This document shows, one piece after another, positions 22,144-31,068 of a stretch of 48,966 nt of DNA (the first letter of the stretch is position 1; each line of letters opens with the position of its first letter). The position numbers and the translations under genes are program-made. Location: positions 1-48,966 of the forward strand of contig JAQIBN010000087.1 in assembly GCA_027859095.1 (NCBI GenBank), read 5' to 3'. The stretch is from Spirochaetia bacterium. Lineage in GTDB: Bacteria; Spirochaetota; Spirochaetia; B11-G9. Below the pieces are notes generated by a model. That model searched no databases. It was not told where the DNA came from and saw only the letters and a list, made by a program, of their open reading frames with translations.

Positions 22144-23174
22144 ATCTTATTATTCCTATAAATTGTTTTTAAAACCATGTGATCTATGAGTGGATTTAAA
22201 CCGTTCATAAATATAATACTGAACATGACCCCTTCTGTATAACCAGCAAAGCTTCTTATAAGAAATGTTAATAATCCACATCCAAAACCATAGATATATT
22301 TACCTATTTTTGTTGTTGGTCCTGTAACAGGATCTGTTGCCATAAACATTGCTCCAAATAAGAGTCCACCGCTGAGGATGCTGAAAACAGGAGGGGCTAT
22401 AGCAGGGGATATCATATTTCCAATAAATGAAAATACTAATACTGTTCCAAGGTATGAAACAGGGATTCTCCAGTTGGATACTTTGGAGAGCATAAGAAAG
22501 ATTCCACCAACAATAATTCCAAGACTGAAAACTTCGCCCATACTTCCTGCATGCAGCCCTCTCAATAGATCCCAATAAGGTGTCATTTCTCCGGAAATCT
22601 GGAAAACACCAAGAGGGGTTGCAGATGTTATTACATCTGCGAAAGGTTCTTTCCATGATGCTGACATAAGTTGTGGAAATGCGATTGTAATAAACAGTCT
22701 TCCAACCAGAGCCGGGTTAAAGATATTTCTTCCTGTTCCGCCAAATATTTCCTTTCCAAAAAATGTTCCAAATATTGATCCGATTGCAACAGCCCATAAG
22801 GGTAGGGTTGGGGGCAGAACCAGTGCAAAAATAAGACCTGTTACAAGAAAACCTTCTTCAATTTCCCTTTCCCTTACTATTGCAAAAGATACTTCTACAA
22901 TCCCTCCGGCAATGTAGGATGTCATAATTATTGCTAAAGCATACAATCCGTAAAAATAGACTGCAGCTGCTGTTGCAGGCAGAAGGCCTATTATAGCAAA
23001 TGACATATATCTTTTTATTTCAATATGATCTTTAATATGTGGTGCTCCATGAGTTACTATACTGGTCCCAAATATTATCCCTTCCATTGTCTCAAAAATA
23101 GATTTAAATTTATGTAATGATTTTTTTTCTCCCATTTGATGAATGAGTTTTTGGACTTTACTCTGCTGCTTCAT
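22140..23174 (-). CDS. nqrB: NqrB/RnfD-like membrane subunit
   Basis: GKEIFGGTGRNIFNPALVGRLF; VITSATPLG flavinylation motif. Confidence 0.93.
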   Translation of the reverse strand: MKQQSKVQKLIHQMGEKKSLHKFKSIFETMEGIIFGTSIVTHGAPHIKDHIEIKRYMSFAIIGLLPATAAAVYFYGLYALAIIMTSYIAGGIVEVSFAIVREREIEEGFLVTGLIFALVLPPTLPLWAVAIGSIFGTFFGKEIFGGTGRNIFNPALVGRLFITIAFPQLMSASWKEPFADVITSATPLGVFQISGEMTPYWDLLRGLHAGSMGEVFSLGIIVGGIFLMLSKVSNWRIPVSYLGTVLVFSFIGNMISPAIAPPVFSILSGGLLFGAMFMATDPVTGPTTKIGKYIYGFGCGLLTFLIRSFAGYTEGVMFSIIFMNGLNPLIDHMVLKTIYRNNKI

Positions 23175-24693
23175 TAGTCTGCTCCTTTGGCTGCATAGGC
23201 GAGCAGCCCACTTGTTGGCGACCAGCCTTCAATCCAATAAGATTATAGGAATTGATAAAATCATCCTCTTTTACATAAGCATCTTCCAGAAGTTTTTTCT
23301 TCCCTTCTTTTAGATAAGCTGCAATTGGTATTTTTGCTGTACATACATAAGTACAAAGATTACAGTCTATACATTTAAATATTCCATACTGAACAGCAGT
23401 TTCATCCAGTCTGTCTCTTTCAACATATGGAAAAAGAACATTTGGAAGTATTCCTGCAGGACAAACATTTTGACAAAATCCACATGAAAGGCATGCTCTC
23501 TGTTCGCCATTTAAGTTTGTATTTATAGTCTTTTTAAAAGGCAGAATCTTTGCAAGAAATGTGTTAGAAAAAGAATCTTTTTTAAAACCTGGTTTTGCAA
23601 AAAACATCAGATCCTGTCCTCTTTTTTCCTCAAGAGCAATAAGTACTTCAGTATTTCTTCCAATAGGTGATTCAAAATTGGATTTTTTCCCTGTTAGAAC
23701 ACTGTTGTTGATAAAACGAATATCTTCCTTATCTTCCAGCAATAGTCTCCCTGTGGAAATATCTGATATAAGTGTTCCCACTTTTAAACTTAAGTGGATA
23801 TTATCATTAAAAACAGGCCCGGCCAAAGCCACTATTTTTTCTGTTAAAGGTTTTCCTTCTACTACTGCTTCATATACATGACAAACGTCCTGTATTCCAA
23901 GTATAACAATACCCTTATTTATACCCTTGTAATTAGCAGGAATATCAATATTTAGTACAGTTTTTGCAAGCACAGAGTCATGGCTCTGAGGATATTTTGC
24001 TTTAGTTTTATGAAATGAAATCGATAAATTATCTGAAACTGCATTATCAATAACCTGAAACCATGTAGAGGTATTTGTACTCATTGCTATGTGAATAGAG
24101 GCTTTTCCCATAATTTTAGCTAGAATGGACAGTCCTTCAGTAAACTTTTTTACACCATCATCCTTCAGGAATACAGAGACGTCAGGGTTAAAAACCTCGG
24201 AATCTGTTGAATGAATTATAATATGCTGAACATCCTCTGGTTCTATTACTGATGATTTGAACCCTGTGGGAATACCACTTGATCCAAGAGAACTTGTTCC
24301 GGATAAATAAATAATTTTCTCCAGATCTTTTCCACCTAGTTTTCTCCAGTCATTTGTAAAACCAGGTACTTTTTCCAATTCAGTGGAATCTGTGCTGGTA
24401 ATTTTGACAACACTAACCTGTTGTTCCAAATAATCCATTTTTTTAACAGATTCAACAATACCATTTACAGAGCTGTGTATAGGAGAAGAAACAGAATCAT
24501 CATCCTGCCATATAATCTGTCCTGCACTGACTTTATCCCCTGTTCGTACAAAGGGTTTTATCTTTGTGTCTGTTTTACTTAAGGGTATGTAGAGATGTTC
24601 TGGTAATACCTGAACGATGAGTTCCTGTGAGGGCTGTCCCTTAAACTGCTTTAATTCATACCCACCGGAAATTTTTCCATTTAGTAATTTCAT
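23158..24693 (-). CDS. NqrA/RnfC-like subunit with two C-terminal 4Fe-4S motifs
   Basis: Biotinyl-like N-domain; IVALAGPVFNDNIHLSLKVGT (NqrA-like); CLSCGFCQNVCP and CIDCNLCTYVCT. Confidence 0.9.
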   Translation of the reverse strand: MKLLNGKISGGYELKQFKGQPSQELIVQVLPEHLYIPLSKTDTKIKPFVRTGDKVSAGQIIWQDDDSVSSPIHSSVNGIVESVKKMDYLEQQVSVVKITSTDSTELEKVPGFTNDWRKLGGKDLEKIIYLSGTSSLGSSGIPTGFKSSVIEPEDVQHIIIHSTDSEVFNPDVSVFLKDDGVKKFTEGLSILAKIMGKASIHIAMSTNTSTWFQVIDNAVSDNLSISFHKTKAKYPQSHDSVLAKTVLNIDIPANYKGINKGIVILGIQDVCHVYEAVVEGKPLTEKIVALAGPVFNDNIHLSLKVGTLISDISTGRLLLEDKEDIRFINNSVLTGKKSNFESPIGRNTEVLIALEEKRGQDLMFFAKPGFKKDSFSNTFLAKILPFKKTINTNLNGEQRACLSCGFCQNVCPAGILPNVLFPYVERDRLDETAVQYGIFKCIDCNLCTYVCTAKIPIAAYLKEGKKKLLEDAYVKEDDFINSYNLIGLKAGRQQVGCSPMQPKEQTNEAAE

Positions 24694-24902
24694 TTTTCAC
24701 CAGTTCTAATTTTATTTTTGATACTTTAATAAGTATTTTTATATATCTTATCGTTATGTATCTGTTTTATTATATACGTTTTAACAAGTATTACAATACT
24801 AAAATGTAATTTATTGCTTTTTTTATCACAACAATAAACAATTAAAATCTTACAATATTATAAAACAATATTAAAGAGAATTTTATTCTTAATATATCCT
24901 GA

Positions 24903-29590: not shown

Positions 29591-29637
29591 CTAAACCGGA
29601 TGTATTTCCAAGACTTTCAAAGGTATGGGGGTAAAAT

Positions 29638-31068
29638 GTGAGAATGCGAGGCGGATATACGCCAAAAATCGATGGAAGACCGAGTAGTATTTTAAAGAAG
29701 ATAGCTCTTTCTTCTTCGTTAACTATCGATCTGCATAGAAATGAAAGGTTTTATAAACCTTTAGTAGAAGAGGGGCAGAGAGTCAAAATTGGTGATCTTA
29801 TTGCGAGTGCGGATCTGAATTTACTTATAGAAAAAGGGGATTCAATTGAAGAAAATGATCCGGTAGAGAAAGAAGCTCAGGTTCTCTACCTGCCTTCTCC
29901 TGCAGACGGGATAATTCATTTAAATATTGAGACAGAGACAGGAAAGCCATTTTCAATTATCCTGTCAGACATAGGATCATCAGTAGATAAAAATCCCCAG
30001 ATAGTGAAAGATCCTAACAGATTAACCCCTATTGAAGCCAGAAAAGTCCTGGTGGAGAGAGGTATTTGGCAGTACATCTGGAGTTCAGGAACCAACGGAA
30101 TCGCAGATATCTCCGGCAAAAAAAAACCAAAGGCAATAGTTATTAACACAATCATTGCTGAACCATTCAGAACCAGAGGAAAGGTAATCCTCAATAATTT
30201 CTGGCACAGTATTATTAAAGGGTTAAGTTACCTCCCTCTGCTTTTGGAGGATTATGGTACAATAGAATTTATCCTTACAGAAAAAAAAGATCCTATTGTG
30301 CAGCTGATGTTAAAAGAACTTACAGGAAAAGCCTGGGTTAAATTCCATTTTGTAGATGTAAAATATCCAATAGAAAAGCCGGAGATACTTAACAAACTTA
30401 TCAGAAAAGAAAAAAACAGATTCAATCAGGATAATGAGATTTGGGTTGTAGACATACAGACTGTTGAAGCAATAGGAATCTGCCTTGGGAAAGGTGTTCC
30501 CATGAGCAGGAGGATTGTAGCCATGGGAGGACCGGCATTCCCTGATCCAATGCACATTAATGTCAGAATAGGAACTCCATTAAAGGATATTATACCGGAA
30601 AATATCAATCTAAATACAACTTTGGTGCTCCGGGGCGGGCTGTTTTTAGGAGAACCCGTGGATCCAGAAAACAGCTCAGTAGGTTTTGATGATGATGCTT
30701 TCTTCTTTATTCCAGTAAAACAAACAAGGGAATTCCTCTCTTTTATCAAGCCAGGATTCAGTAAGAGATCAATATTTCCCAATTTTGCAGGTAGAATTGA
30801 TAGGGACCTGTCAAGTCAGCTGCGCGGTGAACTGCGACCTTGTATTGCTTGTGGAAAGTGCCAGGAAGTTTGCCCCGTTAATCTGATGCCTCAAATTATT
30901 CATCGATATCTTTATACGGATAGACTGGACGAGGCACAAAAGCTGGGACTAGATAACTGTATTGAATGTAATCTATGTACTTTCGTATGTACCTCAAAAA
31001 TTGAACTGAAGGTACAGTTTGTAAATGCAAAAAACATGCTTCTAATGGAGCAGGAAGGGAACTTATGA
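29638..31068 (+). CDS. NqrA/RnfC-like subunit with two C-terminal 4Fe-4S motifs (second copy)
   Basis: RRIVAMGGPAFPDPMHINVRIGTPLKDI; CIACGKCQEVCP and CIECNLCTFVCT. Confidence 0.9.
   Translation: MRMRGGYTPKIDGRPSSILKKIALSSSLTIDLHRNERFYKPLVEEGQRVKIGDLIASADLNLLIEKGDSIEENDPVEKEAQVLYLPSPADGIIHLNIETETGKPFSIILSDIGSSVDKNPQIVKDPNRLTPIEARKVLVERGIWQYIWSSGTNGIADISGKKKPKAIVINTIIAEPFRTRGKVILNNFWHSIIKGLSYLPLLLEDYGTIEFILTEKKDPIVQLMLKELTGKAWVKFHFVDVKYPIEKPEILNKLIRKEKNRFNQDNEIWVVDIQTVEAIGICLGKGVPMSRRIVAMGGPAFPDPMHINVRIGTPLKDIIPENINLNTTLVLRGGLFLGEPVDPENSSVGFDDDAFFFIPVKQTREFLSFIKPGFSKRSIFPNFAGRIDRDLSSQLRGELRPCIACGKCQEVCPVNLMPQIIHRYLYTDRLDEAQKLGLDNCIECNLCTFVCTSKIELKVQFVNAKNMLLMEQEGNL

Follow-up and report, generated by a model that had tools for sequence, protein, structure and literature searches.

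Rnf and Nqr complexes are ion pumps with a homologous core. Electrons come into Rnf through RnfB, pass the core, and flow from the riboflavin of RnfD via the two clusters of RnfC to flavin mononucleotide (FMN) and NAD+ (PMC9588780); in Nqr the entry point is NqrF and the acceptor is quinone, and NqrA carries no cofactor (PMC12174285). Reyes-Prieto 2014 (PMC4014512) proposed a scenario in which rnf was duplicated, RnfB was lost, RnfC became NqrA by losing its NAD, FMN and Fe-S sites, and NqrF was recruited. Bfu enzymes react jointly with NADH and ferredoxin, and two membrane-bound kinds have been predicted: Nuo-Bfu, whose third substrate would be menaquinone, and Mbh-Bfu (PMC9304861). Here we describe two operons, op1 and op2, in a stretch of 48,966 nucleotides (the window; contig JAQIBN010000087.1) from a Spirochaetia bacterium. 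We consider that they probably encode stem-group Nqr ion pumps, which split off once the Nqr line had separated from Rnf and gained its quinone-site architecture, while cluster loss from NqrA still lay ahead, and that both would act as menaquinone reductases, op2 fed by NADH and op1 by BfuABC. The predicted stem-Nqr placement is based on the NqrBCDE core, the A loop, the B arm, the dicluster ligands, the absence of canonical FMN/NADH motifs and of RnfB, and the branching order.

The original prediction described a single feature (23158-31068) with two NqrA-like proteins carrying Rnf-type dicluster tails. Both open reading frames are present, with the strings quoted from them (IVALAGPVFND and RRIVAMGGPAFPDP), and their motif content was as described, but the feature is not one unit: op1 (minus strand, 24693 to 13002) and op2 (plus strand, 29638 to 35106, in the order A-B-C-D-E-F) are separate, divergent operons. 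The last ~110 residues of each A protein hold two CxxCxxCxxxC motifs, and Fer4 dicluster families match both tails above the Pfam cut-offs. Two full cluster motifs were found in all 20 RnfC, in all five op1-type and all five op2-type A proteins, and in none of 21 classical NqrA; cysteine motifs are missing from the classical spirochaete NqrA that were examined, most of which retain just a remnant, for example ALC[ST][YF]. The eight dicluster cysteines of RnfC are invariant across the ten op1- and op2-type homologues, even where identity falls to about 42-46%, indicating that the motifs are not due to chance, and the ferredoxin domain ranks among the best-conserved stretches of these proteins.

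The RnfC motifs GGAxFPT and ECEP, reported earlier as lacking, are indeed absent, since strict GGAx[FY]P and ECEP occur in 0 of 10 op1/op2-type A proteins versus 19 of 20 RnfC. The missing motif text is nevertheless no proof against flavin binding: op1-type A proteins keep a conserved modified FMN loop, LG[SA]xGIPT, together with EV[FY]N, and op1 A matches the FMN domain Complex1_51K at 37.4 bits (Pfam cut-off 31.2), while N...EPF is kept in op2 A. Pfam also places an RnfC_N domain in op1 A and matches NQRA_SLBB in both A proteins, below cut-off in op2 A. In NCBIfam both score between rnfC and nqrA, under both curated cut-offs. With the nqrA models, the two A proteins reached 124 and 117 bits for TIGR01936 (cut-off 321) and 176 and 173 bits for NF003761 (cut-off 450), and classical NqrA controls exceeded the cut-off of at least one of these models. 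The op1-type A protein of another bacterial family (locus L075) exceeds the rnfC cut-off (260.6 versus 246 bits), and automatic annotation would therefore name it RnfC.

In Vibrio cholerae, residues 330-379 of NqrA form a loop that reaches into the membrane and, close to the quinone site, is interlaced with the NqrB arm (PMC9325719). Both A proteins of the window have this membrane loop (~33 residues), absent from all 20 RnfC compared, and the linker that precedes the ferredoxin domain measures 50 residues in op1 and 47-51 in op2, against 16-18 in RnfC and 50-63 in NqrA. The N-terminal arm of B comprises 54-57 residues in op1, 58 in op2, 19-31 in RnfD and 48-59 in NqrB, ranges that leave out open reading frames with over-extended starts (two RnfD, six NqrB). 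Both B subunits carry the Nqr-type GGxxE or GAxxE, as well as KE[VI]FGGTGRN, and in both operons the intramembrane D/E cluster has its cysteines and the C subunits have their flavinylation motifs. No RnfB-like open reading frame was found in op1 or op2, which have NqrF-type genes in its stead; the complete NqrF of op2 was absent from the original prediction.

The concatenated B+D+E tree (LG+C20) gave the order Rnf, op1, operons lacking the A gene (A-less), op2 and classical Nqr, with Rnf on one side of a branch that excludes op1 and op2 (100/100). This order was unchanged without the longest rows and also with 18 A-less operons (99/94 and 98/89 for the two key branches), which dismisses a long-branch effect of a single A-less operon. 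Trees built from B, D, E or C singly keep the groups apart. When the ferredoxin domain and the FMN/ECEP columns were left out, the A tree separated Rnf and op1 from op2 and Nqr (100/98), op1 not being resolved as one clade. Rooting by the D/E gene duplication nested broad-sense Nqr inside Rnf with the same branching order, the key nodes of the D half receiving 99/87 and 99/91. Approximately unbiased (AU) tests rejected op1 and op2 as a single clade (p 0.0165) and op2 with Rnf (p 0.008); the p values are somewhat generous, as the tests were picked after the trees had been seen. The proposal that these sequences are intermediate between Nqr and Rnf is thus supported, op1 and op2 forming successive branches from Rnf toward classical Nqr. 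Neither part of the refuting outcome, a place firmly within classical Rnf and an intact NADH site of RnfC, was observed: the subunits fall outside Rnf, and the A proteins lack the canonical FMN/NADH motifs of RnfC. A misread classical Rnf is excluded by the trees and by the lack of RnfB.

The most unusual part of op1, missed by the original prediction, is an NqrF cut to its 2Fe-2S half, accompanied by a BfuABC module and a polyprenyl synthase. Adjacent genes of op1 overlap or lie at most about 20 bases apart; a scan of the operon for promoters and terminators gave no useful signal, promoters being no commoner than in shuffled sequences. We took the Bfu family definition, applied to op1 domains and cysteine layout, from PMC9304861: op1 BfuB has the N-terminal 2Fe-2S and the two C-terminal 4Fe-4S motifs beyond NuoF, and BfuC is present as well. 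At least three further BfuB-like genes, with 51-59% identity, occur in the genome, and the op1 copy therefore looks dedicated. UbiA- and UbiE-family genes also lie within the window.

Op1-type operons occur in five genomes, namely that of the window, G200 (L004), G202 (L005), G199 (L034) and G068 (L075), and op2-type operons in that of the window, G202, G199, G061 and G068, each type spanning two spirochaete families. Samples of 393 spirochaete genomes held no op1- or op2-type operons beyond these five each, a scan of genome contigs with op1 A found two congeners only, and tblastn of plasmid records returned solely classical NqrA and RnfC at 19-28% identity. In each of the four op1 loci that cover the gene (window, L004, L005 and L075), the truncated NqrF is 149 residues long, and op1 gene order, short NqrF and BfuABC recur in L004, L005 and L075, which makes a frameshift or assembly error unlikely. 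The polyprenyl synthase is directly downstream of BfuA in L004 and L005 too, and two genes further on in L075. An assembly chimera was ruled out, as the arrangement repeats in separate metagenome-assembled genomes of two families.

We propose that op2 would oxidise NADH through its complete NqrF, pass the electrons outward and back again across the core, and reduce menaquinone at the NqrB/NqrA interface with export of Na+ (or H+). The op2 complex combines an Nqr entrance and quinone-site architecture with Rnf exit clusters, minus the canonical FMN/NAD site. Its A clusters would be located where those of RnfC take electrons from riboflavin, and for this reason we read them as putatively serving either as a side exit toward a soluble acceptor or as a relay close to where quinone binds. 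For op1, the simplest reading is that BfuABC, an NADH- and ferredoxin-reacting module of the HydABC family without hydrogenase, would feed electrons to the remaining 2Fe-2S domain of NqrF, so that the complex would act as a confurcating NADH plus reduced-ferredoxin:menaquinone pump; the reductase half of NqrF was either lost from op1 or never there. A bolder proposal, to which we give somewhat less than even odds, is that op1 is an Nqr-Bfu supercomplex and adds a third kind to the membrane-bound bifurcating respiratory enzymes, with co-oxidation of NADH and reduced ferredoxin driving an Nqr-type ion pump. It further holds that op1 and op2 are surviving stages on the way from Rnf to Nqr, with decay of the FMN/NADH site and gain of the quinone site first, completion of the NqrF reductase next, and loss of the clusters last.

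The main rival, which we regard as unlikely but worth serious attention, has op1 running like Rnf, with electrons from ferredoxin or another donor entering at the 2Fe-2S protein and leaving via the A clusters, and with BfuABC reducing NAD+ in place of the lost FMN/NAD site. The clusters would then have been kept because they wire riboflavin to BfuABC, which accounts for their persistence alongside FMN-motif decay; riboflavin does pass electrons to the clusters of Rnf (PMC9588780), and a spirochaete Rnf locus (L086) has an intact RnfB, an RnfC without FMN motifs and BfuBC genes nearby. Left unexplained, however, are the absence of the NqrF reductase half exactly where BfuC begins, the conserved polyprenyl synthase, and the Nqr-type arm, loop and GGxxE, and op2 retains its clusters without any BfuABC. 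A little less likely again, the clusters could be structural relics that transfer no electrons, both complexes being ordinary NADH- or Bfu-driven quinone reductases. Classical NqrA indeed functions without a cofactor (PMC12174285), but relics sit poorly with eight ligands that stay invariant across two bacterial families at the identities given above, in a domain that is among the best-conserved parts of A.

We hold it very improbable that op1 and op2 A are chimeras, in which an ordinary NqrA recently took a ferredoxin domain from an RnfC, even though a true RnfC (L035) is encoded in the same genome. A tree of the ferredoxin domain only, with the cysteine columns removed, joined op1, op2 and the cysteine-less NqrA against all RnfC (100/98), which disfavours recent import; the order of op1 and op2 was unresolved in it (79/54). 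Residues 264-457 of op2 A align unbroken in phmmer with V. cholerae NqrA, relic LCTFVC included, and both A proteins share LCT[FY]VC and the NG..R lead-in with NqrA and not with RnfC; the non-A subunits, moreover, yield the same branching order. Equally far-fetched is a classical Nqr that regained its clusters and was drawn deep by fast evolution, for although the stem branches leading to op1 and op2 are long (0.4-0.56 changes per site), recovery of eight ligands in register is implausible, two alternative topologies were rejected by the AU tests, and the placement is stable under a site-heterogeneous model, without the long rows and with the 18 A-less rows added.

Several points weigh against the reading of op1 and op2 as stem-group Nqr menaquinone reductases. 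Their quinone site, pumped ion, and donor and acceptor are ones that we infer from homology; op1 A, with its conserved modified FMN loop, may bind flavin still, and BfuABC could be the exit of op1 and not its entrance. The Shimodaira-Hasegawa-like approximate likelihood-ratio test gives weak support to two deep nodes in the E part of the D/E tree (95/53 and 98/69). References from outside Spirochaetota were 12 plasmid or chromid records, with no Chlorobi, Chlamydiae, Planctomycetes or deltaproteobacteria among them. AlphaFold2 models of the two A subunits (five rows each) had mean predicted local distance difference test values of 55 and 40 and were not used.

A cluster-bearing stem-Nqr stage was predicted in 2014, and we found no published example of it in the open-access literature, where neither an NqrA with clusters nor an Nqr-Bfu operon is reported (subscription papers were outside the search); the main text of the Bfu paper (PMC9304861) does not mention Nqr. 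The origin of Nqr from Rnf has so far been an inferred scenario for which we found no described surviving intermediate. Op1 and op2 are candidate intermediates that give the relative order of events and account for the ferredoxin-shaped tail of NqrA with its leftover cysteines. Op1 further hints at a new link between electron bifurcation and an Nqr-type pump, and both complexes are open to expression and measurement.

Genes of op1 and op2, with positions in the window
Operon	Feature	Coordinates	Strand
op1	A subunit (NqrA/RnfC homologue), 511 residues; NqrA-type membrane loop and RnfC-type dicluster [4Fe-4S] domain	23158..24693	-
op1	B subunit (NqrB/RnfD); Nqr-type N-terminal arm, GGxxE	22140..23174	-
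op1	C subunit (NqrC/RnfG); FMN_bind domain	21568..22143	-
op1	D subunit (NqrD/RnfE)	20945..21568	-
op1	E subunit (NqrE/RnfA)	20346..20933	-
op1	Truncated NqrF, 149 residues; N-terminal transmembrane segment and 2Fe-2S only (Pfam Fer2), no FAD/NAD domain	19897..20346	-
op1	BfuC (NuoE/HydC-like, 2Fe-2S)	19429..19875	-
op1	DRTGG protein	19094..19429	-
op1	CBS + HATPase regulator	18170..19090	-
op1	DRTGG-like protein	17841..18179	-
op1	PHP domain protein	17091..17831	-
op1	HATPase	16669..17091	-
op1	Thioredoxin-like 2Fe-2S protein	16268..16663	-
op1	BfuB (NuoF/HydB-like); N-terminal 2Fe-2S, FMN/NADH domain, NADH_4Fe-4S, two C-terminal 4Fe-4S	14472..16268	-
op1	BfuA-like (N-terminal part of HydA/HoxU/NuoG); 2Fe-2S and two 4Fe-4S, no H-cluster domain	13867..14475	-
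op1	Polyprenyl synthase, 3' end of op1	13002..13865	-
op2	A subunit (NqrA homologue), 476 residues; dicluster [4Fe-4S] domain	29638..31068	+
op2	B subunit (NqrB)	31065..32153	+
op2	C subunit (NqrC); FMN_bind, SGATMTS	32137..32775	+
op2	D subunit (NqrD)	32723..33415	+
op2	E subunit (NqrE)	33378..33995	+
op2	Complete NqrF; Fer2 + FAD_binding_6 + NAD_binding_1	34012..35106	+

The host is a metagenome-assembled Spirochaetia genome of 4.21 Mb in 314 contigs, which also contains a true rnfCDGEAB operon (L035), an A-less nqrBCDEF operon (L036) and one ApbE; a search for NqrM gave no match in the genome nor in the controls, and is hence uninformative. The A-less operon (L036:9675-13991, G000:C301) has a B subunit without the N-terminal arm that holds A. 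Thirty further spirochaete A-less loci (L118-L147) have no A homologue nearby, some being cut by contig ends, and a ~150-residue protein without clear Pfam family follows nqrF in L036, L118, L120 and L134. Within the window, three similar-looking ~150-residue proteins without Pfam matches (24993-25454, plus strand; 28576-29040, minus strand; 35143-35598, plus strand) adjoin histidine kinase/response regulator genes around op1 and op2, and are possibly redox or metal sensors. A predicted lipoprotein without Pfam match (37572-38390, minus strand) contains DAVTGATNSD, which resembles an ApbE flavinylation motif, and two short overlapping open reading frames (38561-39197, minus strand) resemble a disrupted duplicate of the radical-SAM (HemN-like) gene at 27189-28457.

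Elsewhere, the Rnf operon at L086 (G131:C35) has two RnfB-type open reading frames, each about 690 residues long and apparently fused to a glutamate-synthase-like domain, and its C subunit is the second without FMN motifs to be found beside a Bfu module. The Paracoccus seriniphilus plasmid p599725 (L065) carries a highly divergent Nqr operon whose B subunit is short; beside it lies a cytochrome c3 family gene on the opposite strand, and an ApbE gene follows downstream.

Compared with Na+-NQR, op1 and op2 share the BCDE core, the A-B-C-D-E-F order, the lack of RnfB, the NqrA membrane loop, the NqrB arm and GGxxE, and op2 shares the complete NqrF; they differ in the two intact 4Fe-4S motifs of NqrA, in A scores far under the NCBI nqrA cut-offs and in their position outside crown Nqr, and op1 in having only the 2Fe-2S half of NqrF. 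With Rnf they have in common the C-terminal dicluster ferredoxin domain of RnfC and a homologous core, but they lack the canonical FMN loop, ECEP and RnfB, have a long A linker and a long B arm, and lie outside the Rnf clade. A-less NqrBCDEF, noted in Thermotoga thermarum, Pseudothermotoga lettingae and Clostridium ultunense, among others (PMC4148951, PMC5924567), branches in the same Rnf-Nqr stretch, as judged from spirochaete copies including that of this genome, and has a complete NqrF; unlike op1 and op2, it has neither A subunit nor B arm. Op1, finally, resembles Nuo-Bfu and Mbh-Bfu (PMC9304861) in having BfuABC without a hydrogenase domain inside the operon of an ion-pumping membrane complex, and Nuo-Bfu also in the predicted link to menaquinone; the membrane part of those enzymes is complex I or Mbh, whereas that of op1 is of Nqr type.

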